This document shows, one piece after another, positions 8,331-64,000 of a DNA stretch of 64,000 nucleotides. Made by a program: the position numbers and the translations under genes. The stretch is from Thermobifida halotolerans (GTDB lineage: Bacteria > Actinomycetota > Actinomycetes > Streptosporangiales > Streptosporangiaceae), in NCBI RefSeq assembly GCF_003574835.2, contig NZ_CP063196.1, forward strand, positions 2,356,001 to 2,420,000, read 5' to 3'. The notes beneath the pieces are model-generated. The model made no database searches and had not been told where the DNA came from. It saw only the letters and a list, made by a program, of their open reading frames with translations. Within the stretch, counting starts at the first letter, position 1, and each line of letters starts with the position of its first letter.

Positions 8331-8360
8331 CCCAGCGATATCCTGTTACCCCGCCAGCCT

Positions 8361-8467
8361 CCGTTTTTCAGCGACACGCGGGGGTCTGATGCACGACCGG
8401 AGGCCCGCTGAACAAGCCGTCGAAACCGACCCCTGGGACCGGAAGCGACCAGCGGCTTTACCCTGGA
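8361..8467 (+). promoter_or_regulatory. CRISPR leader, right copy
   Basis: It lies between the cas2 remnant and the first (degenerate) repeat of the right array, reads toward the array, and is an inverted copy of 234-340. A leader drives pre-crRNA transcription and marks the integration end. Conservation of two copies suggests most of this block is functional leader rather than spacer debris. Confidence 0.75.
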
Positions 8468-10154: not shown

Positions 10155-10578
10155 CCGGTCGGCGCGGAGATCCTAGGGTTCCGGTTGGGTCGTCTGCCGC
10201 ATACCACTCCTTCCTTCCGTCGAAAGAGAAGAGCGGACGGGGGCAGTTCCGTGACAGTAAAGACCGGTGGCTGTCGACAGAGCGCGAGAGCCCGTCCCAG
10301 TTGTTCGGACGTTGAGCGGGTACGCCACCTGGTCGAGGCTTCCAACCGAGTCAGGTCCCGGCTGAAAGCCCCGACTGGTCCGAGGAGGAGGACCGCACTC
10401 CTGTGCTGATGGGGCCGCATCCGAGTCGACACAGACCCACGACCGGTTCTCCGAGCCGGACAGGAAGGCCGAGTGAAGGCCGCCGCGGCGCAGTCCTCAC
10501 GAGTCCTGCTTGACCTGAGTACATCCCCACGAGGCCCTTTTCAGGGGGTGTCCCGTGATCAACGGTCCGGGACAGCTC

Positions 10579-12612: not shown

Positions 12613-12688
12613 TGCTCCCCGCGCGTGCGGGGATGGTCCCAGACACGGCGATGCTGGGATCTTCGTTACCGAATGCTCCCCGCGCATG
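12612..12688 (+). CRISPR. I-E-like relic: two repeats, one spacer
   Basis: GTGCTCCCCGCGC...GCGGGGATGGTCCC (29 nt, 12,612-12,640) is a classic type I-E repeat with a GCCCGC-type stem. After exactly 32 nt of unique sequence a second copy begins (12,673: ATGCTCCCCGCGCATG) but is cut off after 16 nt. The 29+32 spacing is diagnostic for I-E. The repeat differs from the 27-kb array (GTGAGCCCCACGC...), so it belongs to a different repeat variant. No cas genes are near. Confidence 0.7.
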
Positions 12689-12818
12689 AGTGAGTGTTTC
12701 CCCGTCAGACAAGACAGCAGGACGGTCAAACCACGCGGTCCGGGACTCGCCACTGCGTGGTTTCGTCTCCCTCGGAGAAGTTGAGCGAGAAAGATCCAGG
12801 CAGAGGCGTTCTTCTGGG

Positions 12819-14925: not shown

Positions 14926-15079
14926 GGCGGTTCCCCCTTGTGGTTGCTGGTTCTGCGGGGCGGTGTCGGCGGGGCCGGTTTCCTGCGGCGGGCGGCCTCG
15001 GTGGTGCGGGCCGGTGACGCGGGCAGGGGTGTTGCCGCGCGTCCGGTCGCGCCGGGACAGGGCGGTGGGACAGTAGCCG

Positions 15080-15175
15080 TCACGGCGGGCGGGCAGGGGC
15101 GGATACCGTCCTGGCCGCCTCACGGGTAGCCCGAGGGGGCTGCTCTGGGTCGATCGTCCCGTTTCCGCGTGGCAT
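15080..15175 (-). CDS. short ORF, 31 aa
   Basis: ATG preceded by a strong GAGAGGAG at 6 nt spacing, in line with and just upstream of the replication genes. The product is short and basic/Pro-rich (MPRGNGTIDPEQPPRATREA...). No family recognised. It is supported by the ribosome site and operon position only, and may be a leader peptide or spurious. Confidence 0.35.
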   Translation of the reverse strand: MPRGNGTIDPEQPPRATREAARTVSAPARPP

Positions 15176-15890
15176 GCTGACTCCTCTCACCGAGAAGGCA
15201 AGAGGGCGCGCGGCTGATCCTGTGACCGCCGGGGCCCGTGTCAGCGGCCACCAGGAATTCCGCGAGTACGGCCGGTTGTCGCTCCCCGTGGGCGGCCACT
15301 TGTGGTCCCCACTGGCGGCCATCACGACATTGGGTGACGACAACGGGCCGTCGAGAACGCATCGCACTGACGGCGGCCTCAGAACGCGCCAGGACAACTC
15401 CCGCGTCGGCGCTCTCGCTTACCCCCGCGGACCTGTGTCGTCGCCTTCCAGGGGCCGATCGCTGTGCGTCGGACCGCCCTCGCCACCACCACACGAATCA
15501 GTCCGACCTGCTCCACACGCTTGGCTACCCGATGTGGTGTCGGATGGCCAGATAGCTCCCCAGCAACTGGCCGCCTCCGGGGAATCTCAACTGGCCACTA
15601 ACAGGCCCGGGCGGCATCAGGAAAAGACATATGGTGGCTGCTGTTTGTCGTGAAGCGCGCGGAGGCGCCGGTTCGAGATGCCCTGGGGCTGTGCTACGGG
15701 TCTTCCCGTGCCATCGGGTGCGGGCTCGGCGGCAGCGGCTTGCCGGCACCTTCCGCGACACCGCGGAGCCCGGTGGAACCGGGGCGTCGGGCTCCAACGT
15801 GCTCCGGGCGGGGGCGCTGATGCGGTGGGCACGCCGCGGGGCGGCGGTCCCGGCGGTCTTTTCCGGGAGATGACAGTGGACAGTAGATAC
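15176..15890 (+). other. no recognisable gene
   Basis: About 700 bp between the replication operon and the ISL3-like element. Open frames exist on both strands but none has a convincing start, ribosome site or family resemblance. It probably contains the promoter region of the leftward operon and decayed element DNA. Confidence 0.5.
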
Positions 15891-17559
15891 GGCTCTGATC
15901 CAATCTGTGTGGAGCCGCCATGCAGGGTGACCATCGCTGCCAGGATGTCGGTTCGTGTGACCACGACCCCCTACGCACGCTCCTGCCCCATCTGCGTGAC
16001 GTCCGTGTGGACGCCGTGACCGCCAGTGGCGGCGAGCTGCTCATCGAGGCCGCAACGACCACCCGCCAGGCCCCGTGCCCCGACTGCGGAACCGTCTCCA
16101 CCCACGTCCACGGCCACTACCAGCGCCGACTCCAGGACACCCCCCATCGGTGGCCAGCCCACCGCCATCCACCTGCGCGTCCACCGGTTCCGCTGCGCCA
16201 GCACTGCGTGCGAACGCCGCACCTTCGCCGAACAGGTCGACGGACTCACCCGCCCCCACACCCCACCACCACCAGACTCTGGAGGCCGTCGCGCTCTGGC
16301 TGGTCGGACGCCCCGGAGCCCGCCTGGCCCGCACGCTCTGCGCCCCCACCAGCCCGAACTCCCTGATCAGGATCCTGCACGCCCTGCCCGACGAGCCGCC
16401 GACCAGCGTTTCCCGCCTCCTGGGGGCGGATGACTTCGCCCTCAAACGCGGCCACGTCCACGCCACGATCCTGCTGGACATGGAGACCGGCCGCCGCATC
16501 GACGTCCTTCCCGACCGCACGGCCGACCCCTTCGCCGCCTGGCTGCGCGACCACCCAGGCGTGGAGATCGTGTGCCGGGACCGGGCCAGCGCCTACGCCG
16601 AGGCCGCCCATTCCGCCGTACCCGGCGCGGTGCAGGTCGCGGACCGCTTCCACCTGTGGAAAAACCTGTGCGAGGCGGTCGACAAGTGCGTGGCCGCCCA
16701 CCGCGGCTGCCTCGCCGAACCAGCCTCCGAACCCGCGCAGACCGACACGGAGCCAACGCCGACCCCGGCAGCGATAGAGGGTTCGGGCTGCTCACAGGCG
16801 GAAACGACATGCTGCGGTCCACGCCCTGCCGGACAAGGGGACCGGGTATCTCGGCGATCGCCGATGCCCTGGGTTTCGACCGCAGGACCGTCCGCCGCTA
16901 CGCGCACGCCCCGACCCCGGAGGACCTGCCCGCCGGCGACGGACGCCGGGCCACCCTCCTCCACCCCTACCCGGCCTACCCGCACCAGTGGTGGAACGAG
17001 GGATACACGGACGCGGTCCGGCTGTGCGCGGAGATCCGCGAGCGGGGCTACCAGGGCAGCGAACACACCCGGCGACCTCGAGCCGCTCCGGACCAGCGGG
17101 CGGCCCGCACCCCCGGTGCCCGAGGCGCTGACCGTCCGCCAGGCCACCGGACCGATCACCAGCCCGCCCAGCCGGTTGAAACCCGAGGAGGAGGTGCGGT
17201 TGAAGGAGCTGCTGAGCCGGTGTCCGCAGCTGGAGCAGGTTGCTAAGTGCGTGCGCTCCTTCGCCACGATGATGCGGGAGAAAGAAGAGGCAGGACCTGA
17301 AGACGTGGCTGGCCAGCGCCGAGGCGACCGAGAGGCAGCCGATGCAGAGCCTCACCCGCGGGCTGCGCCAGGACTTCGACGCGGTGACCACCGGACTCAC
17401 CCCGGAATGGAACTCCGACCGTGTGGAAGGCAACGTGTGCCGGATCAAGGCGCTCAAAAAGGGCCGGGGACGGCCGTGCCGGACTCGAGCTGCCGCGCCG
17501 CCGCATCCTCTACACACCGTGACAGAACGCGGCGGCCTCACACAGACTGGATCAGAGCC
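15891..17559 (+). mobile_element. ISL3-like insertion sequence
   Basis: Imperfect terminal inverted repeats of ~28 bp (left 15,891: GGCTCTGATCCAATCTGTG; right 17,532-17,559, reverse complement GGCTCTGATCCAGTCTGTG) bound a 1.67-kb element with a decayed ISL3 transposase. No 8-bp target duplication is visible at the ends. Confidence 0.82.
15920..17500 (+). pseudogene. ISL3-family transposase, frameshifted
   Basis: The N-terminal zinc ribbon (CPDCGTVSTHVHGHYQRRL plus FRCASTACERRTF) is in two frames. The DDE core is in a third (LGADDFALKRGHVHATIL, DRASAYAEAAHSAVPGAVQV, ADRFHLWKNL). The C-terminal HTH and end (ISAIADALGFDRRTVRRYA, then WNSDRVEGNVCRIKALKK) are in further frames. At least four frameshifts make it non-functional. 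The domain order matches ISL3 transposases of about 500 residues. Confidence 0.82.
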
Positions 17560-18076
17560 ATTCCTGGTGGCCGCTGACAATCTACTCACCCAACCAGCTC
17601 CTTTCTGAAGCAAGGGCTACGCCAGGCCCGTTGCAAGACCACACCTCCACAGTGGACGGCCCCTGCTTTGGTGAACGCCTGGCGACCGAGTACCCGTCCC
17701 CTCGGGCAAATCCCGTCGGCATGGGAGGAATGTGCATGTGGTCACCTCCCCGGACGGGGAGTTGCTGCGAGCCTTCGAGGCACTGCTGGGAGCAGTGCAG
17801 CCTCCGGGCTGCCCGCATCCGGCGATTCGCCGAGTGGATCCAGACTGCGGGACTGCTCACCCTGGCCGGCAAGAGCCCGTGTCGGCCAGTCTCCGGGGGC
17901 GGTTTTGTACTCGTTCAGAAGAACTGGCATCCCTCCACCGGGTGCGGTACTGCCCGTATCGCACCCGGTGAACTCGTCAGAGCAGTGCTGGTCTTTCAAC
18001 TCTGCGAAGCAGGATGAAAAATTCACTTATCCACCACTGAACAGAACTTGAAATTCACCCCCAAACCAAAGGAGAT
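17560..18076 (+). other. no recognisable gene
   Basis: About 500 bp between the ISL3-like element and a low-GC patch. Overlapping open frames on both strands give no credible product. GC content falls toward 18,000, marking the edge of a distinct insert. Confidence 0.45.
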
Positions 18077-18286
18077 TTATTTTTCTTTCTCTCGCCTAAA
18101 AGCGGCTATATTGTAGAGCAAGCCAGCCATTGCAATAGAAGCCAGAAGAGTTGAAACCAGAAAGGCAAGAAACTTTGTAGCCACACCACTAAAATATTCA
18201 TCAAGCAGCGGTTCAGAAATATCCCGAGAATAGTAGAAAGAGAAACAGAAAAACAAAAACCACAGCACTATGAGTAATTTTCTCAT
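18077..18286 (-). CDS. small two-TM protein, immunity-like
   Basis: 69 residues from an ATG with GGAG 5-6 nt upstream. Two membrane segments: LLIVLWFLFFCFSFYY and FLAFLVSTLLASIAMAGLLYNIAAF, ending in RREKEK. The gene is AT-rich compared with its surroundings. Its ATG overlaps the stop of the decayed frame upstream (ATGA), which follows a polymorphic-toxin-like tail. Small two-helix membrane proteins directly downstream of toxin tails are commonly immunity proteins, so that role is inferred from position. A longer in-frame ORF to 18,484 exists but is probably readthrough of the upstream gene. Confidence 0.5.
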   Translation of the reverse strand: MRKLLIVLWFLFFCFSFYYSRDISEPLLDEYFSGVATKFLAFLVSTLLASIAMAGLLYNIAAFRREKEK

Positions 18287-18925
18287 TTTTCTCCAGCCTG
18301 GGGTGTCGACTTCCAGGCAAGCCGACACCCCCTCTTTGCACATGAAAGGGACGTCTCGCCACGCGTGCCTCCCACCAAATCCCCAATGGTGGATGACATT
18401 GGACCGGCGATGCGCTCCAGGCCTATACCTAAATGGAAGATGCAAAGCCTCCCCGAAGGCAATATTGGGACCCACCTTTCCCAAAAGGGACGCAATCCAT
18501 CTTCCGGCCCCCCTAAAATCATTGCCGACGCACCGGCCGTAGCAGCTTCTACAGCGTAGCTACCAAAAGTTTTCTCCCCTGGAGAGATAGTGGTTCACTG
18601 CATTCACCCCTGCACCGATCGCTCCCACGACAATCAAGCCACCCAGGCCAGCACATATTCCGGCAGTAGCAGCGAGGCACGCTGTAATCGCAATTCCAGA
18701 AACGATACCGACTCCGATTTTCGCCCAATCTTTCCAGGTCATTCCAGAGACGTGGTCGGTTACCGAGTTCCAAGAATCTCTTACCGAGTTCCCTGCGGAC
18801 TGCCACCAACTCTGCCCACTTCTTGCGTTGCTGACCGCTTCTTCTCCGGGGTTCCTAGAGGGACCGGAGTAGGGGTTCCTCTGCTGTACCGCGGCATAAC
18901 TGCTTCCCTTGGCCGAAACAGACAT
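18283..18925 (-). pseudogene. polymorphic-toxin-like C-terminal remnant
   Basis: An ORF from 18,925 to 18,560 gives WNSVTDHVSGMTWKDWAKIG then a Gly/Ala-rich hydrophobic segment (IAITACLAATAGICAGLGG), a pattern seen before C-terminal toxin domains of secreted polymorphic toxins. A one-base shift at about 18,565 would continue it (GSYAVEAATAGASAMILGG) to 18,283. No secretion domain precedes it, and its 5' side abuts the zeta-toxin frame. It is therefore a displaced 3' fragment, AT-richer than its neighbours. The toxin activity is not identifiable. Confidence 0.5.
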
Positions 18926-53119: not shown

Positions 53120-53249
53120 TCACCAGACTGGCATCGTGCCTTGCCCGCCAGGCGCGAGAAACTTCGGTTGTCAACAGAGTGAGCGACGGACGCTACCGCC
53201 CCGTCCCCCCGTGCCCCCGCATCAGCGACAGCGGCAGCACAAGCAGGTG

Positions 53250-53340
53250 GTGATCCCCGCACACGCGGGGATGGTCCGACGTTGAACCGCCACCACGGCA
53301 CCGCGTGGCCATGCTCCCCGTGTATGCGGGGATTGGGTCC
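53250..53340 (+). CRISPR. I-E-like relic: two repeats, one spacer
   Basis: GTGATCCCCGCACACGCGGG (53,250 onward, 29 nt ending GGATGGTCCG), exactly 32 nt of unique sequence (53,279-53,310), then ATGCTCCCCGTGTATGCGGG (53,311 onward, degenerate). The 29+32 geometry matches type I-E. It sits directly upstream of an hsdR tail, so it is part of a decayed defence region. Confidence 0.72.
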
Positions 53341-53408
53341 CGCCCCGCTGGGGCGGGACCACGACAGCGGCTGGCCAATCCGCTGGGCGACGCCGAGGTG
53401 AAGACCCG

Positions 53409-53777
53409 CCTCGTCGAGCGCGGGCGGCCTCGGCCGCCGAGGTCTGCACCGCAGAAGAGCTGCGGCGGGCACAGCGGGAGCACGGCGGCGGCCTCGGCCG
53501 TCTGGTGCGCGTCCTGCTCGGGCTGGACCGCGACGCGGTCGAGGCGGCCTTCGCCGCCTTCCGCCAGGGCCGCTCCCTCGGTGCCGCGCAGGCCCGGTTC
53601 GTCGAGACCATGATCGGCTACCTGGAGGGCAACGGGACGCTGGACGTGGGCGCGCTGTACGAGTCGCCGTTCACCTCGCTGGCCCCCAACGGCCCCGAGG
53701 ACCTGTTCGGCGAGGCCGACCTCGACGCGCTCGTCGCCGTCCTGGAGCGCATCGAGGCGACCGCCGTGCCCTCGTGA
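53409..53777 (+). pseudogene. hsdR: hsdR C-terminal fragment (type I RM)
   Basis: About 122 codons without a proper start: TAEELRRAQREHGGGLGRL, LVRVLLGLDRDAVEAAFAAF, RFVETMIGYLEGNGTLDVG and ALYESPFTSLAPNGPEDLF. This is the C-terminal helical domain of type I restriction endonuclease R subunits (normally ~1,000 residues). The helicase and nuclease domains are absent. The break point lies next to the CRISPR-like relic. Confidence 0.82.
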
Positions 53778-53854
53778 GGACACGGCGGTCGCCGAACAGG
53801 CACGGCCTCGCCCCGGCCGGGTCACCTCCCGCAGGAGGCCCGCCGGTGTCGAGG

Positions 53855-54115
53855 TCACCGCCGTCGGCGCACGTTCGGGCCGAACCTGGCCTCGCGTTCC
53901 CTCGGGTCGTCGGGGTCGGGGGAGTTGGCGATGAACACCGCCACCGGCGGGATGACCGCCGCGACCACGCACAGCGCGATGGCCCACTCCACGCCCGCGA
54001 GCATCCCCACCGGGACGGCCAGCGCGAACAGGAGCAGGCACACCGCCATCAGCACGACGTAGCGCCGTCTGCGGCGCGGCGCGTTGCGCCAGCGGTCGCG
54101 GACCACGGTTCTCAT
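53855..54115 (-). CDS. DUF3099 membrane protein
   Basis: 86 residues with two membrane helices (YVVLMAVCLLLFALAVPVGM and WAIALCVVAAVIPPVAVFIA) and the conserved tail NSPDPDDPREREARFGPNVR. Function unknown. The gene lies 14 bp beyond the stop of the phosphoribosyltransferase-hydrolase gene, with which it is probably co-transcribed. Confidence 0.82.
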   Translation of the reverse strand: MRTVVRDRWRNAPRRRRRYVVLMAVCLLLFALAVPVGMLAGVEWAIALCVVAAVIPPVAVFIANSPDPDDPREREARFGPNVRRRR

Positions 54116-54129
54116 CTCCTCCGCGTCGT

Positions 54130-55455
54130 TCAGCCCCGCACCGGGCGCGGGGCCCGGGCCAGGTGGCCGGTGAACCAGTCGCGAGCCAGCTCCGCCACGG
54201 TGGTCAGCGCGCCCGGCTCCTCGAACAGGTGGGTGGCCCCGGGAATCACGGTGAGCCGGTGCTCGCAGCGCAGCCGCGCCTGGGCCTGCCGGTTGAGGTC
54301 GAGCACGTGCGGGTCGTCGCCGCCGACGATGAGCAGGGTGGCGGCGCGCACCGACTCCAGGGCCTCCCCCGCCAGGTCGGGGCGTCCGCCCCGGGACACC
54401 ACGGCCTGGACGTCGCTGCGCGGTTCGGCCGCCGCCGCCAGCGCCGCCGCGGCCCCGGTGCTCGCGCCGAAGTAGCCGACCGGCAGCTTCGCCGTCTCGG
54501 GGCGTTCGCGCACCCACTCGGCCGCCACGGCGAGCCGTCCGGCCAGCAGGCCGATGTCGAACACGTTGTCCCGGTTCTCGGCCTCGGCCTCGCTGAGCAG
54601 GTCGAACAGCAGGGTGCCGAGTCCGCCCCGGTTCAGCGCCTCGGCGACCTCGCGGTTGCGCGGCGAGTGCCGTCCGCTGCCGCTGCCGTGCGCGAACACC
54701 ACGACCCCCACGGCCTGCTCCGGCACGGTCAGGTGCCCCGGCAGCCGGATGGGACCGGCCTGGATCTCGACCTCCTCGTCCACCCCGCCGCTCGGCGGCG
54801 CGTGCTCGGTGCGGGGGCGCACCGCGGCGCGCGCCAGCAGTTCGGTGACCTCCAGGTCGGAGGTCTGGGTGAAGTCGGTGTACCACTGGCCGATGGAGGA
54901 GAAGTCGTCCGGTGTCTGCGGGCAGATCACCTCGTCGGCCTCCTGTTCCAGCCGTTCGACCGCGTCGGGCGCGCCCACCGGGGTGGCCACCACCACCCGG
55001 CGCGCTCCCAGGTGGCGGGCGACCTGGCAGGCGGCGCGCGCCGTGGAGCCGGTGGCGATCCCGTCGTCGACGACCACGGCGGTGCGGCCGCGCAGCGGCA
55101 TCCGCGGCCGGTCTCCCCGGAACTGGCGTACCCGGCGCTCCAGTTCCTGCCGTTCGCGCTCCTCCACGGCGGCGAAGTCGCGTTCGTCGGCCCCGGCCAT
55201 GGACATGACGCGCGCGTCGACGACGCGGGCGCGGTCCTCCCCGATCGCGCCCATCGCCAGCTCCGGTTGGAACGGCACGCCGATCTTGCGGACCACGATC
55301 ACGTCCAGCGGCGCGGCGAGCGCGGTGGCGAGTTCGTAGGCCACGGGAACGCCGCCGCGCGGCAGGCCGAGGACGACGACGTCGTCGCCGTCCAGCCGCT
55401 GTGCCGCCTCCGTGGCGAGCCGCCGTCCCGCGTCCGTCCGGTTGGTGTACGTCAT
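54130..55455 (-). CDS. phosphoribosyltransferase-hydrolase fusion
   Basis: 441 residues from MTYTNRTDAGRRLATE. The N-terminal ~215 residues are a type I phosphoribosyltransferase: VVVLGLPRGGVPVAYELA and the PRPP loop VVVDDGIATGSTARAAC (~residue 122). The C-terminal ~220 residues are a dienelactone-hydrolase-like alpha/beta hydrolase: VVFAHGSGSGRHSPRN, nucleophile GYFGASTGAAAAL, DDPHVLDLN (Asp) and GATHLFEEP (His). This fusion recurs in actinobacteria and some proteobacteria; substrates are unknown. Confidence 0.88.
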   Translation of the reverse strand: MTYTNRTDAGRRLATEAAQRLDGDDVVVLGLPRGGVPVAYELATALAAPLDVIVVRKIGVPFQPELAMGAIGEDRARVVDARVMSMAGADERDFAAVEERERQELERRVRQFRGDRPRMPLRGRTAVVVDDGIATGSTARAACQVARHLGARRVVVATPVGAPDAVERLEQEADEVICPQTPDDFSSIGQWYTDFTQTSDLEVTELLARAAVRPRTEHAPPSGGVDEEVEIQAGPIRLPGHLTVPEQAVGVVVFAHGSGSGRHSPRNREVAEALNRGGLGTLLFDLLSEAEAENRDNVFDIGLLAGRLAVAAEWVRERPETAKLPVGYFGASTGAAAALAAAAEPRSDVQAVVSRGGRPDLAGEALESVRAATLLIVGGDDPHVLDLNRQAQARLRCEHRLTVIPGATHLFEEPGALTTVAELARDWFTGHLARAPRPVRG

Positions 55456-55554
55456 CTCCGCCCTCCCCGGCGAGACTTCCCATGGGGCGGGCACTACCCG
55501 AGCGGTCCGTGCTGATTCGGCTTCCCGGGCACGTATTCGTCGAGGAAGCGGGGG

Positions 55555-56559
55555 TCAGGAGGCGGGGTCGGCGCTCCAGGCGGCGCGGATCTCGGCCGGT
55601 GGCCAGGACGCGGGGTCGCGCAGTCCGGGCAGGCCGCGGCTGACGTCGTATCCGGCCGCGGCGAGGCGGCGGTCGGCGGCCTCGGCGCGGCGCACGGTGA
55701 CCTCGTCGAACAGCAGGTTGTACAGCGGGGTCGGCACGGCGTGCAGCGCGGCGCGCAGCGCGCCCAGGGCCGCGGTGACGGCCACCTGTGTTCCCGGGGG
55801 TTCGGGCAGCAGGCGGTAGTCGCGGCGGGCCCAGTCGGGCAGCGTGTGGTAGGCGAGCGCGCCCACGGGCAGCCACAGCGGCTTGAGCGGCCGCAGCCAG
55901 GCGAGCCGGTCGGGCAGGGCGGGCCACATCAGGTAGCGCGCCGCCGCCACGGCCTCGGGCCCGGCCCGCAGCGCGGGCCGGGCGGCGGCGAGGTAGCGGC
56001 GCATCTGGTCGACCGAGGCGGGCACGTCGGCGGGGTCGAGTCCGACGTGGGCGGCGGTGCGGGCCTGCTCGGCGAGGTAGCGGTCGGCCTCGGCGCGGCT
56101 GAGCCGCAGCCCCGCGCGGGTCACCACCTCCAGGTAGGAGGTGACCTCGGCGCAGTGCACCCACAGCAGCAGGTCGGCCTCGTCGACGCGGTGCCGCCGT
56201 CCGGTGGCCGGGTCGGTGAAGGACAGCCTCGCGTGCACCCGGCGCACCCGGGCGGCGACCTGTTCGACCTCGGCGGGGCTGCCGTAGGTGGTGACGGCGA
56301 CGTAGTCGGCGGTGCGCAGCAGGCGGCCGGTGGGGTCGGTCCGGAAGTCGGAGCGCTGCCACACGCCCTGCATGGCCACCGGGTGCAGCGCCTGGAGCAT
56401 GAGGGCGCGCACCCCCGCCACCCACATGGCGCGGTCGAGGTGCACCCGCCAGGTGACGTCCTCGGGCAGGGCGGCGGTCGGCCGCGTCGACGCCGCGTCC
56501 GTCCGCTCCTGCCGCTCCTCACCGGCCCTCACACGCACGATGCTACCGCCCCGAAACAT
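55555..56559 (-). CDS. MpaB/DUF2236 oxygenase-like protein
   Basis: 334 residues from ATG (a GTG at 56,541 is an alternative; no strong ribosome site). DUF2236 features: VAGVRALMLQALHPVAMQGV, RSDFRTDPTGRLLRT, and LLLWVHCAEVTSYLEVVTRA with the putative haem/metal histidine. Related to latex-clearing protein and mycophenolic-acid MpaB. Reaction unknown. About 420 bp upstream (56,560-56,981) show no gene. Confidence 0.8.
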   Translation of the reverse strand: MFRGGSIVRVRAGEERQERTDAASTRPTAALPEDVTWRVHLDRAMWVAGVRALMLQALHPVAMQGVWQRSDFRTDPTGRLLRTADYVAVTTYGSPAEVEQVAARVRRVHARLSFTDPATGRRHRVDEADLLLWVHCAEVTSYLEVVTRAGLRLSRAEADRYLAEQARTAAHVGLDPADVPASVDQMRRYLAAARPALRAGPEAVAAARYLMWPALPDRLAWLRPLKPLWLPVGALAYHTLPDWARRDYRLLPEPPGTQVAVTAALGALRAALHAVPTPLYNLLFDEVTVRRAEAADRRLAAAGYDVSRGLPGLRDPASWPPAEIRAAWSADPAS

Positions 56560-56981
56560 CCCATCATGGGGATACCCCTCGTGAGCAGGGCGGATGCGCG
56601 GTACGGCCCACGTTCTCGGCGTGGACGCGGTCCGCTTCCCTGCCCGCCCGAACCGGGCCGCCACCCCTCGGGGGATCCGTGCTCCGGAGCCGCCGCACCG
56701 CCTCCCGGTCCCCGCGCACGGGGAACCGGGCGCCGCCCTGCCGGACGGCCCGGTCGCCTCCGAGTCCGAGTCCGCCTGCCCGCTGTCGGCGCGGGGATCG
56801 GCGAGCTGTCCGGGACCGCCGACACGCGCGCGGCGGAGCCGAGCCGCGCGACGCACTGCGGCCGCCGCTCACCGCCGGTTCCGAGACGACGTCCTCGGTC
56901 CCGGCCGGCGGCGGCCGAGGTGCCGCGCCGGTCCGGCGGCGTGGCCGCGCCGCCGTTCCCGGACTCGGCGCGAAGGCGCCC
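56560..56981. other. no recognisable gene
   Basis: Gap between MpaB-like and MFS genes, both leftward. Open frames exist but are shadows of high GC. It probably contains the MpaB promoter; no hairpin, riboswitch fold or repeat was recognised. Confidence 0.45.
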
Positions 56982-58238
56982 TCACTCCCGGCCGCCCTGG
57001 GCGGGTGGCCTGCGGGAGAAGTGCCGGGCCCCGGGGGCGAGCGCGGCGGCCGCGGGCGCCAGGAAGCACACGAGGGCGCAGACGCCCAGAACGGTCGGCG
57101 CGCCCAGGGCGTCGGCGGCGGGGGCGATGAGGGCGAGTCCCACCGGGGCGAGCCCGTAGGACAGCAGGAAGTCCAGCGAGGAGACCCGGGCGAGGCGGCT
57201 CGGGTCGACCTCGCGCTGCGCGGCGGTGAACCACGGGACGTTGAACAGTTCGACCCCCACCCCCGCCACGACGTAGGCGGCGACCACCACCGCGGGATGC
57301 GCGGGGGCCAGCAGGCTCAGCGGCGCGAACCCGTAGCAGGCGAGTCCGGCCAGCGCGGCCCACCCCTGGGCGCGGGGCCTCCAGCGCGCCATGAGCAGCG
57401 CCCCCGCGAGCGCCCCGGCGGTGTAGCCGGTCAGCGCCGCGGCCAGCACCGCCTCCGTTCCGTAGTGCTCCCTGCTGGCCTCGGGGAGCAGGACCCCGGT
57501 CGCCGAGTAGCCGGTGGCGATGACGGCGGTGAGCGCGCCCAGTCCCGCGAGGAACCAGGGGTGGCGGCGCGCCTCCCGCAGGCCGTCGAGGAACTCGGTG
57601 TGGAAGGGGTCCCGTCGCGGCGGCGCCGTCGGCGCGGCGGCGCCCCGGGGTGGGAGCGCCGCCGCGGCCAGCCAGAGCAGGCCGGTGCCGACCAGCAGGG
57701 GCACGGTCCCGGTGACGGTGGCGAGCAGCGCGGTCAGGCCCGGCCCCAGCAGGGTGGTGACCCGCACGGCCAGCGTCATGGCGGCGTTGGCCTGCTGGCG
57801 GCGCGGTTCGTCGACGACCTCGCGGGTGAGGGCCTGGAAGGCGGGGCGGCAGGCGCCCTGCCCGACGCCGACCACGGCCGCGGCGGCGGCCATGACGGCG
57901 ACGGACCCGTCCAGGCCGAGCGCGATGGCCGGGGAGGCCAGCGCCGATGCCGCTCCCGCCCAGCCCACGACCCGCCGGCGGGAGTAGCGGTCGGCCAGGA
58001 CCCCGGCGACGGGGACCGCGGCGAGGAATCCGGCGGTGCGGACGGCGAGCACCAGGCCGAGGCCCGCGGCGGTGAGGGAGCCGTCGAGCACGGCGAGGCC
58101 GAGGACGAACGGCAGCGCCCAGGTGGCCAGTCCGGACGCGACGGTGCCCGCCCACAGGCGCAGGAAGGCGGTGTCGCGCAGCAGACCCGTCCGCTCCGCG
58201 GCGGGGGCGGCCAGGGCGGTGGGCGGTGGGGAGGGCAC
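56982..58238 (-). CDS. MFS exporter, metallophore-type
   Basis: 418 residues from GTG, about 12 membrane segments. The first half includes FLRLWAGTVASGLATWALPF and GVLADRYSRRRVV (MFS loop 2-3 motif). Overall it resembles EntS-type siderophore exporters. It diverges from the biosynthetic operon at 58,486 and shares a promoter region with two Fur/Zur-like boxes. Inferred role: export of the cluster's product. Confidence 0.82.
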   Translation of the reverse strand: MPSPPPTALAAPAAERTGLLRDTAFLRLWAGTVASGLATWALPFVLGLAVLDGSLTAAGLGLVLAVRTAGFLAAVPVAGVLADRYSRRRVVGWAGAASALASPAIALGLDGSVAVMAAAAAVVGVGQGACRPAFQALTREVVDEPRRQQANAAMTLAVRVTTLLGPGLTALLATVTGTVPLLVGTGLLWLAAAALPPRGAAAPTAPPRRDPFHTEFLDGLREARRHPWFLAGLGALTAVIATGYSATGVLLPEASREHYGTEAVLAAALTGYTAGALAGALLMARWRPRAQGWAALAGLACYGFAPLSLLAPAHPAVVVAAYVVAGVGVELFNVPWFTAAQREVDPSRLARVSSLDFLLSYGLAPVGLALIAPAADALGAPTVLGVCALVCFLAPAAAALAPGARHFSRRPPAQGGRE

Positions 58239-58287
58239 GGATCATCATCTCCTCGGACACGGGAGTGGGAACGGCCACCCACTGTAA

Positions 58288-58302
58288 TGAAAACGATTAT
58301 CA
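58288..58302. promoter_or_regulatory. Fur/Zur-like box, exporter side
   Basis: TGAAAACGATTATCA is a 7-1-7 dyad (TGAaAAc/gaTtATCA), 50 bp upstream of the MFS start. The form fits actinobacterial Zur or Fur boxes rather than the IdeR/DmdR box (TTAGGTTAGGCTAACC). Confidence 0.7.
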
Positions 58303-58353
58303 ATCGCATACTGAACCCTCGCCCCGGAAAACTCCACCGCCGGGGCTAGGGAC

Positions 58354-58366
58354 GAAAATGGTTTTC
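58354..58366. promoter_or_regulatory. Fur/Zur-like box, biosynthesis side
   Basis: GAAAATGGTTTTC (dyad GAAAAt/gTTTTC) followed by ATTTATAGTGTG, which resembles a -10 region, 120 bp upstream of the methyltransferase. It would let the same regulator control the biosynthetic operon. Confidence 0.65.
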
Positions 58367-58485
58367 ATTTATAGTGTGACCGCCTCCGGCCGAACCCGGG
58401 CAGAAGGCGCATACGGCATCCCGTGGACAATCCGGGAAGAGCACCGCCCCGGCCCCATCCGCGAACCACACACGAGAGGATCCGC

Positions 58486-59208
58486 GTGGACCACCCCCTG
58501 GTCGCCCAGCTCCCCCCTCCCCTGCCCGCCGACCGCGTCATCGCCGTCAACCAGCCCAGGACCGACCTGGCCTCCCACCGCTCCTACACCTGGAACGGCT
58601 GGACCCTCGACGTGCCGCCCGGCGTCTTCCTGCCCGGCGCCACCAGCCGGATGATCCACCAGCGCGTCCTCGACGGCGGGATCGACGTCCGCGGCCGACG
58701 CTACGCCGCCATGGGCGTCGGCCTGGGCGTCGAGGCGGTGGCCGCCGGACTGCGCGGAGCCCGGGAGATCTACGCCATCGACGTGCACGCCGACAGCGTC
58801 GCCACGACCGCGCGCCACTACGCCCGCCTCGTCGGCGACCGCCCCGCCACCAGGTTCGTCCCCGTCGTCGGGAACGTCTTCGACGGCCTCCCCGACGGAG
58901 TGCGACTCGACGTCGTCACCTTCAACCCGCCCGCCGTCAGCCAGCCCGTCAGCGACGACCCCGACGTCGTGCGCAACGTGTGCGTGGGCGCGTCGCTGCT
59001 GGAGACGTTCTTCGCCCAACTCGCCGGACGGGACCTGCTGGCCCCCGGCGGCGAGGTGTTCGTCATCGTCTCCAACACCGCCGACCTGCGCCGCATCGTC
59101 GGCGCCGCCCTCGACCACGGCCTCGCCCCCGAGATCGGCCACCGGCACGACTGGGGCGACGGCGTGGTGACCCTGCTGTTCCGCTTCACCCGCGGGGAGG
59201 GCGCGTGA
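58486..59208 (+). CDS. SAM-dependent methyltransferase
   Basis: 240 residues from GTG with GAGAGGA 5 nt upstream. Class I fold: RRYAAMGVGLGVEAVAAGL (SAM loop), AREIYAIDVHADSV (acidic), and VVTFNPPAVSQPV, the NPP motif of N-methyltransferases acting on amines. First gene of the four-gene operon under the metal box; GTGA overlap with the next gene. Likely modifies the cluster's small molecule; the substrate is inferred only. Confidence 0.8.
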   Translation: MDHPLVAQLPPPLPADRVIAVNQPRTDLASHRSYTWNGWTLDVPPGVFLPGATSRMIHQRVLDGGIDVRGRRYAAMGVGLGVEAVAAGLRGAREIYAIDVHADSVATTARHYARLVGDRPATRFVPVVGNVFDGLPDGVRLDVVTFNPPAVSQPVSDDPDVVRNVCVGASLLETFFAQLAGRDLLAPGGEVFVIVSNTADLRRIVGAALDHGLAPEIGHRHDWGDGVVTLLFRFTRGEGA

Positions 59209-60017
59209 ACACCGTCGCCGCCCTGACCGACCGCGTGCTCGCCGGCCTGTCCGGCCTGTCCGGTCCGGCCGCGCCCACCGCCACCAGCGTGTTCTGGCTG
59301 CACCACGGCACCCGGCTGGCCGACGGGGACACCACCTACCTCAACCACTACGTCCTGGTCCGGGCGGGCCGCGCGTTCGGCGCGTGCGCCTTCGAACCCG
59401 GCGAGGTGGACGCCGCCGTCTGCGCCGAGGCGTCCGGCCGCCCCCTCGCCGACCTGCTGCGCGCGGGCCCGCTCCCGCTGCGCCTGGCCGCCCTCGACGC
59501 CTGCCTGGCCCGCTCCCTCCCCCACCGCGACGATCCCCGCGCCGAGGCGGTGCCCCTGCCCGCGGGCACCCCCCAGGAGCGGGCCCTGGCCCGCGACGCC
59601 GCCGTCGCCGGGCTCCTCGACATCCCGCCGGGCGCGAAGGTGGCCCTGATCGGCGTCGTCAACCCGCTGGTCGCGGCGATCCGCGAGCGCGGCGGCGAGT
59701 GCCTGCCCTGCGACCTCAACCTGCGCACCACCCGGTGGGGCGACCCCGTCACCGCCGACATGGACGAGGTCCTCGACGCCGCCGACGCCGTCGTCGCCAC
59801 CGGCATGACCCTGGGCAACGGCACCTTCGACGAGATCCTGCGCCGCTGCCGCCTGCGCGGGACGCCGCTGGTGGTCTACGCCCAGAGCGGCAGCGCCGTG
59901 GCGCGCGCCTTCCTCGGCTCCGGCGTCACCGCCCTGTCCGCCGAGCCCTTCCCCTTCTCCCAGTTCAGCGCGGAGACCACGACGCTCTACCGCTACCGCG
60001 CGGAGCACGAGGCATGA
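59205..60017 (+). CDS. DUF364/DUF4213-like metal-chelation protein
   Basis: 270 residues from a GTG overlapping the previous stop. The N-terminal ~90 residues (TSVFWLHHGTRLADGDTTYL) and the C-terminal Rossmann-like half (KVALIGVVNPLVAAIRERGG, DAADAVVATGMTLGNGTFDE, TPLVVYAQSGS) match the two-domain family proposed from structure to act in heavy-metal chelation. Biochemical activity of the family is not established. Here it lies between a methyltransferase and a kinase. The match is by pattern, so moderate confidence. Confidence 0.65.
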   Translation: MNTVAALTDRVLAGLSGLSGPAAPTATSVFWLHHGTRLADGDTTYLNHYVLVRAGRAFGACAFEPGEVDAAVCAEASGRPLADLLRAGPLPLRLAALDACLARSLPHRDDPRAEAVPLPAGTPQERALARDAAVAGLLDIPPGAKVALIGVVNPLVAAIRERGGECLPCDLNLRTTRWGDPVTADMDEVLDAADAVVATGMTLGNGTFDEILRRCRLRGTPLVVYAQSGSAVARAFLGSGVTALSAEPFPFSQFSAETTTLYRYRAEHEA

Positions 60018-61015
60018 CCCCCGGGACCGGCCTGGCCCCCTGCCACCACGGCGAGATCCTCCAGGGGGTCTTCGCCGACGGGCGGAAGGAGCCGTGCCGG
60101 GGACTGGTCACCCTCCCCCTGGCCGCCCCCCTCACCCGCGCCGTGTTCGTCCCGCTGCCCGGCACGCCCGCCCGCCGGATCGCGGTCGCCCCCTCGGGGC
60201 GCGCCAAGGCCGCCCGGGCCGCGGCGCTGGCGGCCGCGGAGTGCGCCCGCCGCTCGGGGCTGCCCGCGTGCGGCGGACGGCTGCGGCTGAGCGGCGGCGT
60301 CCCCGTCGGTCTGGGCATGGGCTCCTCCACCAGCGACGTCATCGCCGCCGTCCGCGCGGTCGCGGCGGCCTTCGCCGTGGAGCTGTCGCCGGAGGAGGTG
60401 GCGCGGATCGCGGTGCGCGCCGAGACCGCCGCCGACCCGACCATGCTGGACGCGCGGCCGGTGCTGTTCGCCCAGCGCGAGGGACGCGTCCTGGAGGACC
60501 TCGGCCCCGCCCTGCCCCCCGGCGTCGTCGTGGGCTGCCTGACCGGCGGCGGACGCCCGGTCGACACGCTCACCCTGCCCCCGGACCCCTACGGTGCGGC
60601 TGACCTGGCCGCCTACGAGCACCTGCGCGCGCTGCTGCGGCGGGCGGTCGCCGACGCCGACCCGCTGCTGCTGGGCCGCGTCAGCACCGAGAGCGCCCGC
60701 CGCAACCAGCGCATCGCCCCCAAACCCGAGCTCGACCTGCTGGAGAGGGCCGCCCGGCACAGCGGCGGCACCGGGGTGCAGGTCGCCCACAGCGGCAACG
60801 TCGCCGGTGTGCTCTTCGACGCCGCGGCCCCCGACCTGACCGAACGCGTGCGCGAGTGCGTGTGCTTCCTGCGGGACAGCGACGTCCCCGTGACCCGGAT
60901 CTTCCGATTCCCCTCTGGTGTGACGGAGCGTGAGCATGGACGACCACATCTGCGAAGCGATCGGCCGACCGGACCTGGTGAACCTCGACGGAGGACTCGT
61001 CTGCCTGCGGTTTGA
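60014..61015 (+). CDS. GHMP kinase, PduX-like
   Basis: 333 residues from an ATG overlapping the previous stop (ATGA). Starts CHHGEILQGVF as in PduX-type L-threonine kinases. GHMP motif 2 is GVPVGLGMGSSTSDVIA (~residue 100), and the third motif is GTGVQVAHSGNVAGVLFD. The family makes O-phospho-amino acids or alcohols. The last ~27 codons overlap the next gene by 80 bp, which is long for this operon. A frameshift or a shorter native C-terminus is possible. Confidence 0.82.
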   Translation: MTPGTGLAPCHHGEILQGVFADGRKEPCRGLVTLPLAAPLTRAVFVPLPGTPARRIAVAPSGRAKAARAAALAAAECARRSGLPACGGRLRLSGGVPVGLGMGSSTSDVIAAVRAVAAAFAVELSPEEVARIAVRAETAADPTMLDARPVLFAQREGRVLEDLGPALPPGVVVGCLTGGGRPVDTLTLPPDPYGAADLAAYEHLRALLRRAVADADPLLLGRVSTESARRNQRIAPKPELDLLERAARHSGGTGVQVAHSGNVAGVLFDAAAPDLTERVRECVCFLRDSDVPVTRIFRFPSGVTEREHGRPHLRSDRPTGPGEPRRRTRLPAV

Positions 61016-61985
61016 GACGATGAAGGCGCTGTCGGCCCTGGCCGCGGTGCGCCACCTGCTCGACACGGGCACGGTACGGCCCGGCGACACCCTGATCGAC
61101 AGCTCCAGCGGCATCTACGCCTACGCCCTCGCGCTGGCCTGCCACCGGTTCGGGCTGCGCTGCCACATCGTCGGCTCCACGACCGTCGACCATACGCTCC
61201 GCGTCCAACTGGAGGTCCTCGGGGCGCGCCTGGAGCAGATGGAGCCGTCCTCGGACCTGAAGCTCGACCAGAGCCGCCGGGTCCGCAGGATCAGGGAGAT
61301 CCTGCGCGACCACCCCGACTACCACTGGATGCGCCAGTACCACGACCGCGTCCACTACCTGGGCTACCGCACCGTCGCCGACACCGTCGCCGAGCGGGTC
61401 GGCGGCGGCCCGCTGACCGTGGTCGGCGGCGTCGGCTCGGGGGCGTCCACCGGGGCGCTGGCCCGCTACCTGCGGGAGCGCTCCCGCGACACGGTCCTGG
61501 TCGGCGTGCAGCCGTTCGGCAGCGTCACCTTCGGCTGCGAGCACCTCACCGACCCCGAGATCATCATCGCCGGGATCGGCAGCTCGATCCCCTTCGGCAA
61601 CGTCGACCACGCCCTCTACGACACCCTGCACTGGGTCGGGTTCCGGGCCGCCCTGGCCGGAAGCGTGGACCTGCTGCGGCGGCACGCGGTCTTCGCCGGA
61701 CTGTCCGCGGGGGCCGCCTACCTCGCCGCGCGCTGGGAGCTGCGGCGCGCTCCGGAACGGACCGTGGTGTTCGTCGCCGCCGACACCGGCCACCGGTACG
61801 TGGACTCGGTGTTCGCCCGGCACCGCGAGGCCCCCGACATCGACTCCCTCGCGCCCCGCGAGACGGCCGATCCGTCCCGTCTCGCGCTGCCGTGGTCGCG
61901 GATGGACTGGGGCCGCGCCCCGGCTCCCGAGTCGGCCCGGTGGCCCGGCGACACCACCCCGTCCGGCACGGTCCCGGTCGCCTGA
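60936..61985 (+). CDS. CysK/SbnA-like PLP enzyme
   Basis: 349 residues from the ATG with GGAG 7 nt upstream (GTG 6 nt earlier possible). Fold-type II PLP pattern, divergent: LRFETMKALSALAAVRHLL supplies the expected lysine, DSSSGIYAYALALACHRFG the substrate loop, and VGGVGSGASTGALARYL the phosphate loop. Related enzymes replace an O-acyl or O-phospho group on serine (CysM, SbnA). Preceded by a kinase, it likely uses an O-phospho-amino acid and an amine or thiol to build a chelating backbone. The product is unknown. Confidence 0.78.
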   Translation: MDDHICEAIGRPDLVNLDGGLVCLRFETMKALSALAAVRHLLDTGTVRPGDTLIDSSSGIYAYALALACHRFGLRCHIVGSTTVDHTLRVQLEVLGARLEQMEPSSDLKLDQSRRVRRIREILRDHPDYHWMRQYHDRVHYLGYRTVADTVAERVGGGPLTVVGGVGSGASTGALARYLRERSRDTVLVGVQPFGSVTFGCEHLTDPEIIIAGIGSSIPFGNVDHALYDTLHWVGFRAALAGSVDLLRRHAVFAGLSAGAAYLAARWELRRAPERTVVFVAADTGHRYVDSVFARHREAPDIDSLAPRETADPSRLALPWSRMDWGRAPAPESARWPGDTTPSGTVPVA

Positions 61986-61993
61986 CCGGCGCG

Positions 61994-62020
61994 CCGGGGC
62001 GGCCCCGTCGGCCGCCCCGG
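61994..62020. terminator. bidirectional hairpin terminator
   Basis: 11-bp perfect stem CCGGGGCGGCC / GGCCGCCCCGG with 5-nt loop between the converging biosynthetic operon and the ABC-importer operon. Confidence 0.8.
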
Positions 62021-62031
62021 CTCCGGCCGCG

Positions 62032-63048
62032 CTACTCCTCGCGGTCCTGGTGGAACTCGCGCAGGTAGTCGGCGAACTTCTCCAGGCCGTCGACGTTGCG
62101 CGGCCCGCTGATGCCCTCGTTGTAGTCGAGGACGAAGAAGGCGTCGTTGACCACCGCGGGCAGGTCGGCGGTGATCGGCGAGGACTTCAGGAAGTCGATC
62201 TTGTCCTGGGCGGGCTGGTCCCCGTAGTCGAGGATGACGATGACCTCGGGACGCGCCTCGACGACCGCCTCCCAGCCCGCCTGGAACCAGCGTTCGTCGA
62301 CGTCGCCGAAGATGTTCTCGCCGCCCGCGAAGCGGATGATGTCGTTGGGGGGCACCTGCCTTCCGGCGGTGAAGGGCTGGTCGGTGCCCGAGTCGTAGAG
62401 GAACACCGGGACCGGGTCGCCCTCGGGTGCCCGCTCGCGCACCGCCGCGACCCGTTCGCGGAAGTCGGCGACGACCCCGGCCGCCCGGTCCTGCACGCCG
62501 AAGATCGCCCCCAGGCGCTCCAGGTCGGTGTAGAGGGCCTCGAACGGCTCGACCCGCTCGGGGAAGCCCGGGTAGTTGTAGCAGGACTCGGTGTGCATGA
62601 AGCTCTGGATGCCGAGCCCGTCGAGGATCTCGGGGGTGATGCCGCGCTGGTCGCTGAAGCCCGAGTTCCAGCCGGCCACGACGAAGTCGGCCTCGACGTC
62701 GACGACCAGCTCCCGGTTGAGCAGGTCGTCGCTGAGAAACTCCACCTCGGCGTACTCGGCCGCCCACGGCGACTCCTCGACCGGCGGGTTGGCCGGGGGC
62801 ATGACGTAGCCGAGCACGTGGTCGGTCAGGCCCAGGACGAACATCTTGTCGGCGCTGCCGCCCTCGTAGACGACCGCGCGCCGCGGCGTGGTGTACTCGA
62901 CCTCCTCCCCGCACCGGCGCACGGTGACGGTGCGGGCCTCGCCGGCGGCCTCGATCTGGGCGCCGCACCCGGTGAGCAGGAGGGCTCCGGCGGCGGCGAG
63001 CAGCACCGGGCGCGGCAGGTCCGCACCCGTCCTCGGCCTGGTGGTCAA
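62032..63048 (-). CDS. metal-chelate ABC substrate-binding lipoprotein
   Basis: 338 residues from a TTG overlapping the ATPase stop (TTGA). Lipoprotein signal with lipobox LLTGCGA. FecB/BtuF-type fold: RRAVVYEGGSADKMFVLGLT, DFVVAGWNSGF, EVIVILDYGD and the long-helix C-terminal lobe with FADYLREF. It binds an iron- or metal-chelate outside the membrane. Last gene of a leftward permease-ATPase-receptor operon, convergent with the biosynthetic genes. Confidence 0.88.
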   Translation of the reverse strand: MTTRPRTGADLPRPVLLAAAGALLLTGCGAQIEAAGEARTVTVRRCGEEVEYTTPRRAVVYEGGSADKMFVLGLTDHVLGYVMPPANPPVEESPWAAEYAEVEFLSDDLLNRELVVDVEADFVVAGWNSGFSDQRGITPEILDGLGIQSFMHTESCYNYPGFPERVEPFEALYTDLERLGAIFGVQDRAAGVVADFRERVAAVRERAPEGDPVPVFLYDSGTDQPFTAGRQVPPNDIIRFAGGENIFGDVDERWFQAGWEAVVEARPEVIVILDYGDQPAQDKIDFLKSSPITADLPAVVNDAFFVLDYNEGISGPRNVDGLEKFADYLREFHQDREE

Positions 63049-63836
63049 GGGTTCCCCTTCTCTGTGGTGTCGGAGGTGAGCGTGTAGAGCAGTTGCGGGG
63101 CGCCGGTCAGCGGGTGGGGGACCACCTCCGCGTCGACCCCGAAGACCTCACGGACCAGCGGCGGCGTCAGGACCTCCCGCGGCGTGCCCGAGGCGACCAG
63201 GCGCCCTTCGGAGAGCACCCCGACGCGGTCGCAGGCCGCCGCGGCCAGGTTGAGGTCGTGCAGCACCACGAGGACGGTGGTCCGGGTGCGGCGCAGCAGC
63301 GACAGCAGGTCGATCTGGTGGCGCACGTCGAGGTGGTTGGTGGGCTCGTCCAGGACGAGCACCCGGGGCTCCTGGGCGAGGGCGCGGGCCAGCAGCACCC
63401 GCTGGCGCTCTCCCCCGGACAGCTCCAGGACTCCGCGGCGGGCCAGGTGGGCGACGTCCATGCGCTCCATCGCCCACCGGCACAGCCGCCGTTCGCGCAC
63501 GTCGAGCGGCCGGTTGCCGCGCAGGTGGGGGGTGCGGCCGAGCGCGACGACCTCCTCGACGGTGAAGTCGAGGTCGGTGCCGTTCTCCTGGGTCAGCGCG
63601 GCCACCGCCCGGGCGCTCTGCCGCAGGGCCAGGTCGGCCAGGTCGGTCCCGCCCAGCAGCACCGCTCCCCCGCTGGGCCGCAGCGCCCGGTAGACGCAGC
63701 GCAGGACCGTCGACTTGCCCGAGCCGTTGGGTCCCACCAGGCCGACGAGTTGGCCCTCGGGCACGTCCAGCGACAGGTCGTGGACGATCCGGCTACCGTC
63801 GACGTCCACGGACAACCGGTCGATGCGCAGTTCCAC
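63045..63836 (-). CDS. FecE-type ABC ATPase
   Basis: 263 residues from a GTG overlapping the permease stop. Walker A GPNGSGKSTVLR, Q-loop TQENG, signature LSGGERQRVLLARAL, Walker B VLVLDEPTNHLD and H-loop VLVVLHDLN are all intact. The C-terminal FGVDAEVVPHPLTG is typical of siderophore/cobalamin importers. Energises the importer with the partial permease upstream. Confidence 0.93.
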   Translation of the reverse strand: MELRIDRLSVDVDGSRIVHDLSLDVPEGQLVGLVGPNGSGKSTVLRCVYRALRPSGGAVLLGGTDLADLALRQSARAVAALTQENGTDLDFTVEEVVALGRTPHLRGNRPLDVRERRLCRWAMERMDVAHLARRGVLELSGGERQRVLLARALAQEPRVLVLDEPTNHLDVRHQIDLLSLLRRTRTTVLVVLHDLNLAAAACDRVGVLSEGRLVASGTPREVLTPPLVREVFGVDAEVVPHPLTGAPQLLYTLTSDTTEKGNP

Positions 63837-64000
63837 TACCGGCCTCCGAACAGGTAGGCCCTGCGGCGCATGAGCGTGATGAACACCGGGACGCCGACCA
63901 GCGCGGTGATGACGCCGACGGGCAGTTCCCGGGGCGCGGCGAGCACGCGGGAGACCAGGTCCACCCAGACCATGAAGACCGCGCCGACCAGGGGGGCGAG
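63836..64000 (-). CDS. FecCD-type permease, C-terminal part
   Basis: The window ends inside this gene. The visible 54 residues read VGAVFMVWVDLVSRVLAAPR, ELPVGVITALVGVPVFITLM and end RRAYLFGGR, the conserved end of BtuC/FecCD permeases. Its stop overlaps the ATPase start by one base (TAGTG). Confidence 0.88.
   Translation of the reverse strand, partial: LAPLVGAVFMVWVDLVSRVLAAPRELPVGVITALVGVPVFITLMRRRAYLFGGR

Follow-up and report, generated by a model that had tools for sequence, protein, structure and literature searches.

A 64,000-nucleotide stretch of the Thermobifida halotolerans genome (G000:C1:2356001-2420000 of 5.5 Mb; hereafter the window) very probably holds, judging from gene content and promoter motifs, a set of genes, common to many actinobacteria, with which a small zinc-binding molecule is made, exported and re-imported. 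The genes lie at the end of the window and encode an exporter, four biosynthetic proteins, among them a DUF364 protein and an enzyme dependent on pyridoxal phosphate (PLP), and an importer of the FecBDE class, with boxes of the zinc regulator Zur in the divergent promoter. Metallophore clusters are usually recognised by enzymes of nonribosomal peptide synthetase (NRPS) or NRPS-independent siderophore (NIS) synthesis, which these genes lack. We consider it fairly probable that this is a Zur-repressed locus for an aminopolycarboxylate zincophore, built in the manner of the staphyloferrin B enzyme SbnA and without SbnB, zinc binding and the identity of the chelator being presumed from the genes. 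Zur-controlled metallophores as such are already known (coelibactin, EDDS and pseudopaline), and the new part would be the enzyme set of a small non-NRPS zincophore. No description of the cluster was found in the open full text that was searched, a body of text that does not contain the EDDS and EDHA gene papers.

Organization of the locus

The original prediction described these genes as a closed metallophore set for export, synthesis and uptake. Pfam and NCBIfam searches and the translations bear out all seven of the genes it named, and a set of the metallophore type is supported; it is not closed inside the window, since most of the permease gene lies past the window edge. The exporter (56982-58238, minus strand) is an MFS_1 protein (Pfam, 4.3e-39) encoded divergently from the biosynthetic operon. 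That operon starts with a methyltransferase-like protein of the S-adenosylmethionine-dependent kind (58486-59208, plus strand; start codon uncertain, with GTG at 58423 as the alternative), which carries an NPPAVS motif, has no Pfam match at E <= 0.01 and has as its top NCBIfam match a PRK14968-type methyltransferase at 31 bits, against a cut-off of 162. It is followed by the DUF364 protein (PF04016; 59205-60017, plus strand; 5.8e-14), which passes the Pfam gathering cut-off (52.4 versus 23 bits) and has the same fold as 3L5O and 3NPG. Next comes a GHMP-type small-molecule kinase (60014-61015, plus strand; GHMP_kinases_N, 2e-13), probably an amino-acid kinase, perhaps for threonine. We take its likeness to PduX from a motif only, and no PduX-named model was among its NCBIfam matches at E <= 0.01, where the presence of such a model in the NCBIfam set was not checked. 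The last biosynthetic gene encodes a CysK/SbnA-like PLP enzyme with a shortened N-terminus (60936-61985, plus strand; PALP, 2.3e-34). From methyltransferase to PLP enzyme the successive overlaps are 4, 4 and 80 bases.

Facing this operon on the minus strand are the importer genes, for a FecB-type substrate-binding lipoprotein (62032-63048; Peripla_BP_2, 2.5e-20), a FecE-type ATPase (63045-63836; ABC_tran, 1.7e-32) and the 3' end of a FecD-type permease (63836-64000), whose remainder lies beyond the window (L004:10836-11972) and whose class was named by eye from sequence and neighbours. The window cluster holds no NRPS gene.

Zur boxes in the window and the genome

By their motif the boxes are Zur (zinc) boxes and not IdeR boxes; binding by Zur is presumed from it. 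Box 1, TGAAAACGATTATCA (58288-58302), on the exporter side, has one mismatch to tGaNNatSatNNtCa, a motif that summarises 172 Streptomyces coelicolor Zur sites (PMC5472717). Box 2, CGAAAATGGTTTTCA (58353-58367), on the biosynthesis side, has two mismatches to the published motif and one to TGAAAANSNTTTTCA; its matching site in a genome of the same genus (G086), TGAAAATGATTTTCA, has none to the published motif. The two dyads are the sole matches to TGAAAANSNTTTTCA at <= 1 mismatch in the 64 kb, and 100 dinucleotide shuffles gave 0. Another Zur-like box, TGGATATCGTTTTCA, with two mismatches, stands upstream of the permease gene beyond the window (L004:10836-12018 covers the permease remainder and this box). 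A simple scan of 58200-58520 found no sigma-70-type promoter.

In the whole genome the query pattern has 22 sites at <= 2 mismatches, as against 11 for the reversed pattern, and eight of the 22, including the two window boxes, have at most one mismatch. A comparison with a genome-wide Zur/Fur motif had been suggested beforehand, and it came out in favour of Zur: among the other six sites, one precedes an operon of ABC ATPase, ABC-3 permease and FUR-family genes (znuCB-zur), one precedes znuA and another lies between the L33/L31 genes and a CobW-type gene with L28, all three being textbook Zur targets. Of the remaining three sites, two are inside a catechol siderophore cluster and one is at the start of nucS.

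Recurrence of the boxes

The boxes were also sought in promoters of related loci, type B loci (described below) being left out of the first sample, with the reversed Zur pattern as control. The first sample comprised 94 loci (80 + 14), of which 93 had a scannable promoter stretch and three were same-genome repeats; the second comprised 51 loci, 14 of them repeats. Of the 93 scannable loci, 83 carried the motif at <= 2 mismatches and 52 at <= 1 (control 1 and 0). After removal of repeats the figures were 80/90 and 50/90 in the first sample (control 1 and 0) and 32/37 and 21/37 in the second (control 0 and 0). Boxes with at most one mismatch precede the exporter gene in 44 of 87 promoters, the methyltransferase gene in 23/52, the binding-protein gene in 18/64 and the permease gene in 15/81, and are rare before the kinase (1/42), PLP enzyme (1/60) and DUF364 (1/56) genes. 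An IdeR-type box of 19 bp, with a consensus that we take to be the IdeR one, was present at <= 4 mismatches in a single locus of the 93 (control 0), and the two IdeR-like sites of this genome both lie outside the locus. The original prediction had spoken of Fur/Zur-like boxes that should recur upstream in other genomes. They do recur, and it is the zinc part of the description that stands, while the iron part, in its IdeR form, does not.

Distribution, core and optional genes

The gene set recurs elsewhere, as had been asked of it. Among the ten related loci first fetched, the eight-gene set was complete in six and cut by contig ends in two more, which argues that the arrangement is not due to chance. 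A scan of named genomes returned 404 relatives of DUF364, of which the best 80 were kept for locus counts; these include loci of Nocardiopsis, Streptomyces, Amycolatopsis, Saccharothrix, Lentzea, Kibdelosporangium and Thermocrispum. DUF364 of either cluster type is present in 11 of the 150 family genomes, 30 of the 394 class genomes and 6 of the 396 phylum genomes sampled (own genome counted), and in 106 of 249 genomes of a second family, judged to hold Lentzea, Umezawaea and Amycolatopsis; these four samples overlap. Nine plasmid records match DUF364, and on three of them the eight-gene set, or most of it, could be traced.

Gene content was counted in the 78 of the 80 loci that hold a PLP gene, a homologue being a tblastn match above 80 bits anywhere in the fetched locus, and some of the misses being contig ends. 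Exporter homologues were present in 71 loci, importer homologues in 69, kinase homologues in 66 and methyltransferase homologues in 46. Kinase and methyltransferase occur together in 37 loci, the kinase alone in 29, the methyltransferase alone in 9 and neither in 3. DUF364 and the PLP enzyme are therefore the most constant biosynthetic pair, DUF364 being the steadiest partner of the PLP enzyme, and with the exporter and importer they form the most constant parts; the kinase and methyltransferase, and tailoring genes generally, vary among clusters. This weakens the proposal of the methyltransferase as a core, finishing step, no homologue having been found in 32 of 78 clusters; a kinase homologue is likewise missing in 12. 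The importer comes in two sequence types, with binding proteins either about 75% or 55%, or about 30%, identical to that of the window.

Some loci carry further genes. A PhyH-type dioxygenase gene stands between the DUF364 and PLP genes at L145:9896-10708 and L205:8480-9226, and the TauD-type dioxygenase family is found near the exporter in 12 of the 80 loci (e.g. L062:4471-5247), which suggests hydroxylated variants of the product. In the same-genus genome G086 two fragments of a second-copy GHMP kinase, in different frames, lie downstream of the intact kinase, at a distance of about 5.4 kb (L016:16014-16659; G086:C1:1889968-1890664) and adjoin homology to a second MFS gene in three tblastn pieces.

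Kinase presence and residue 168 of the PLP enzyme

The presence of the kinase goes together with a single residue of the PLP enzyme, at position 168 in the numbering of the window protein, where Ser marks the kinase-partnered clusters. Residue counts left out two loci with no PLP gene in the contig (L080, L121) and two with a partial one (L064, L132), and identical or near-identical repeats were removed from counts of unique sequences. Alignment A4 omitted L057 and L129, which have a stop codon in the chosen range. In the initial comparison Ser168 was present in 65 of 65 PLP enzymes from loci with the kinase and Thr168 in 11 of 11 from loci lacking it. With more loci, and type B loci left out, the unique sequences gave 77/77 and 15/15. 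A second sample took in all but one of the 52 places at E <= 1e-117 (51; the remaining one was already in the first); its new sequences, some of them closely related to earlier ones, since the first sample had already drawn on their family, gave 24/24 and 13/13, and its 14 repeats also fit. Over all 129 unique sequences, Ser168 accompanies the kinase in 101 of 101 cases and Thr168 its absence in 28 of 28. No other column is perfectly associated, the next best sorting 126 of 129.

The kinase has changed state several times. A careful tree of 79 rows shows four changes, one of them on the type B row L025. A quickly built tree of 133 rows, from which L025 was left out, shows five, of which at least four are forced by starred branches, and none of 500 shuffles gave a number as low. 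One case is the PLP enzyme of Streptomyces nanshensis (L125), which has Ser168 and a kinase and is nested among kinase-less enzymes; its kinase is divergent (37% identical) and on the opposite strand. Nine of 12 kinase-less named genomes contain no kinase relative at E <= 1e-5, and the kinase-less genome G102 contains none at E <= 1e-3. In the aligned PDB relatives, namely SbnA, Mycobacterium tuberculosis CysK and a cystathionine beta-synthase, position 168 is Thr.

This covariation argues that the kinase feeds the PLP enzyme, in agreement with the coupling that the original prediction had drawn between them. Probably, as far as the residue pattern can tell, the kinase changes the substrate of the PLP enzyme, which would be phospho-threonine with the kinase and a serine ester in its absence.

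Relation to SbnA and a proposed pathway

SbnA is the best PDB relative of the PLP enzyme both by profile and by fold (the structure model has a pLDDT, a predicted confidence score, of 82). SbnB belongs to the ornithine cyclodeaminase/mu-crystallin family PF02423, and the whole genome contains no match to that family at E <= 0.001; the same search was positive in 8 of 14 control genomes. SbnA joins O-phosphoserine to glutamate, and SbnI is a dedicated kinase that makes the O-phosphoserine (PMC12414870). The window cluster resembles this step in its predicted use of a phospho-amino acid, a PLP enzyme of the CysK fold and a dedicated kinase. It differs in that the N-terminus of its PLP enzyme is compressed and one loop of that enzyme reads SSSGIY, its boxes are of the Zur and not the Fur kind, and no gene of the SbnB family is present in the genome. 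The corresponding SbnA adduct is converted further, to diaminopropionate, when staphyloferrin B is made; with an SbnB-type enzyme absent here, the adduct or a derivative of it is probably the end product.

The following sequence of events would account for the gene set. When zinc is scarce, Zur would leave the boxes, and the divergent exporter gene, the biosynthetic operon and the importer operon would be expressed. The kinase would phosphorylate a beta-hydroxy amino acid on its hydroxyl group, L-threonine being the likeliest candidate. The PLP enzyme would then eliminate the phosphate and attach a second amino acid (by analogy, aspartate or glutamate) through its amino group, so that an N-linked diamino-polycarboxylate results. 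DUF364 may perform or assist a conserved further step, and the methyltransferase, where present, may decorate the product. The MFS protein would export the chelator and the FecBDE-type ATP-binding cassette (ABC) system would return its zinc complex.

Type B clusters and plasmid-borne relatives

DUF364 also stands beside a CysK/SbnA-like gene in a second kind of cluster, here called type B (L025, L147-L155, L162, L163), whose stretch in L025 is 8068-18400 and which also occurs on plasmids of Streptomyces and Rhodococcus. Like the window cluster, type B combines this pair with an MFS exporter and an importer, in the three loci whose genes were read (L025, L162, L163), and with a Zur motif, which at <= 2 mismatches is found upstream in 9 of 12 (control 0/12). 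In place of the kinase, it has an ATP-grasp ligase and a dipeptide-epimerase-like gene (L025 by Pfam and NCBIfam, L162 and L163 by annotation); its importer is of the peptide/nickel type (NikA/Dpp; L025, L162, L163), and position 168 is Thr in all 12. The annotation of L162 and L163 includes a methyltransferase, and the matching open reading frame (ORF) of L025 has no Pfam match. The presence of DUF364 in two different clusters with Zur boxes and transporters strengthens its link to metallophore synthesis.

The kinase occurs outside DUF364 clusters as well. A kinase match was present in 94 plasmid records, 25 of them listed, and 13 neighbourhoods were read. In all 13 a CysK-like gene lies immediately 3' of the kinase, which is 40-48% identical to that of the window, and 11 of the 13 partners have Ser168. 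One neighbourhood is itself a DUF364 cluster (Tsukamurella, L160), a threonine synthase gene adjoins the pair in four, and three are sets of kinase, CysK-like, ATP-grasp and argH genes. The pairs at L159, L165-L171 and L173 are on rhizobial and Paraburkholderia plasmids, from bacteria of root nodules and soil, and include the four next to threonine synthase. The cassettes with ATP-grasp and argH, which we take to be of the diaminobutyrate type, share the kinase and its CysK-like partner with the window cluster. The latter differs in having DUF364, an exporter and an importer and in lacking ATP-grasp and argH, neither of which is found by Pfam or NCBIfam among its seven window proteins.

Weighing the explanations

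Several observations tell against the zincophore pathway outlined above, or limit it. The Ser/Thr counts are counts of sequences, many of them close kin, and the independent switches number about four to five; the larger, 133-row tree was built quickly, leaves 41 forks open and carries long-branch warnings. Three of the 12 kinase-less genomes have a kinase homologue (33-38% identical) elsewhere, and two of the 13 plasmid kinase partners, both from Mesorhizobium, have Thr at position 168. Residue 168 aligns directly after Ser185 of SbnA, in what is presumably the loop that binds the cofactor phosphate, and a contact with the substrate methyl group is not implied. The PLP enzyme scores 139 bits with the NCBIfam SbnA model (TIGR03945), against a cut-off of 349.95. 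Scanned promoters lack a box at <= 2 mismatches in 10/90 and 5/37 loci of the two samples, and at <= 1 mismatch in 40/90 and 16/37.

Four other explanations were considered. The cluster could be an orthologue or close variant of a known zinc-repressed cluster of Amycolatopsis, that for [S,S]-ethylenediaminedisuccinate (EDDS; aes) or for EDHA, which we regard as unlikely. In A. japonicum the synthesis of EDDS, a small chelator, is Zur-repressed and its structure pointed away from an NRPS or NIS route (PMC9252823, PMC4993170). Loci of the present cluster occur in five Amycolatopsis species among the best 80 of 404. The chemistry of EDDS, on the other hand, offers no obvious use for a kinase or a methyltransferase. 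Coelibactin of S. coelicolor is likewise under Zur (PMC5472717) and is a predicted non-ribosomal peptide (PMC3430247), whereas the window cluster is without an NRPS gene. A product that is no metal carrier, such as an antimetabolite or signal of the diaminobutyrate type under Zur, its importer being coincidental or serving resistance, seems rather unlikely: two of the 13 plasmid kinase-CysK pairs do have NRPS or adenylation genes as neighbours, along with ATP-grasp and argH, but importer homologues of two sequence types accompany the cluster in most loci, and Zur boxes stand ahead of exporter, biosynthesis and importer genes alike.

The FecBDE class of the importer, used for ferric siderophores, would also suit an iron siderophore locus under Fur/IdeR; we hold this very improbable in view of the scarcity of IdeR-like sites in the 93 loci beside the 83 with Zur-like boxes, and of the position of this genome's own two. 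Least credible, and nearly discounted by us, is salvage of cobalamin or other corrinoids through a PduX-like kinase and a BtuFCD-like importer. The kinase motif and the match of the ATPase to the corrinoid ABC model (251 bits, cut-off 537) lean that way, but against BtuF the binding protein reaches 44 bits (cut-off 234), Pfam and NCBIfam identify no cobalamin gene among the proteins of the cluster, and Zur boxes are present.

A zincophore locus thus being our preferred explanation, a wider version of it can be put forward tentatively, as one we take seriously without quite expecting it to hold. The clusters may represent an undescribed and widespread class of actinobacterial zincophores with a two-enzyme core of DUF364 and the SbnA-like PLP enzyme. 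In this class DUF364 would be the chelator-forming enzyme, a new function for an orphan family; gain or loss of the kinase together with one Ser/Thr change would switch the backbone between threonine- and serine-derived forms, and importers would be swapped to match.

If the zincophore explanation is correct, NRPS-free zinc scavenging would be explained for many strains of Streptomyces, Nocardiopsis, Lentzea, Saccharothrix and Amycolatopsis. The orphan family DUF364, which Pfam describes as 'putative heavy-metal chelation', would gain a concrete and testable setting, and residue 168 would serve as a one-residue marker predicting kinase-using clusters. Zinc chelators that are small and biodegradable also attract practical interest as replacements for ethylenediaminetetraacetate (EDTA), a point made in the literature on EDDS.

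Other observations

On the exporter side of the locus, positions 53193-56856 of the window hold ORFs that were named by eye as phosphoribosyltransferase/hydrolase-like and DUF2236-like; a homologue of the latter was near the cluster only in L016 (among 10 loci) and L113 (among 80). The catechol cluster elsewhere in the genome (L042:4468-8404; G000:C1:1227968-1231917) has chorismate-binding and isochorismatase genes and Zur-like boxes, two at <= 1 mismatch and one at 2; possibly it encodes a second metallophore controlled by zinc, or else a siderophore whose control is shared. The strong Zur-like box at nucS, an endonuclease gene, is found where the called reading frame begins and has the sequence TGAAAATGATTTTCG (L045:4116-4130; G000:C1:3339615). 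A further Zur-like box, TGACAACGATTATCA, lies at the start of a gene for a CbiA/MinD-type ATPase (L046:4036; G000:C1:199535), possibly a metal-insertion protein.

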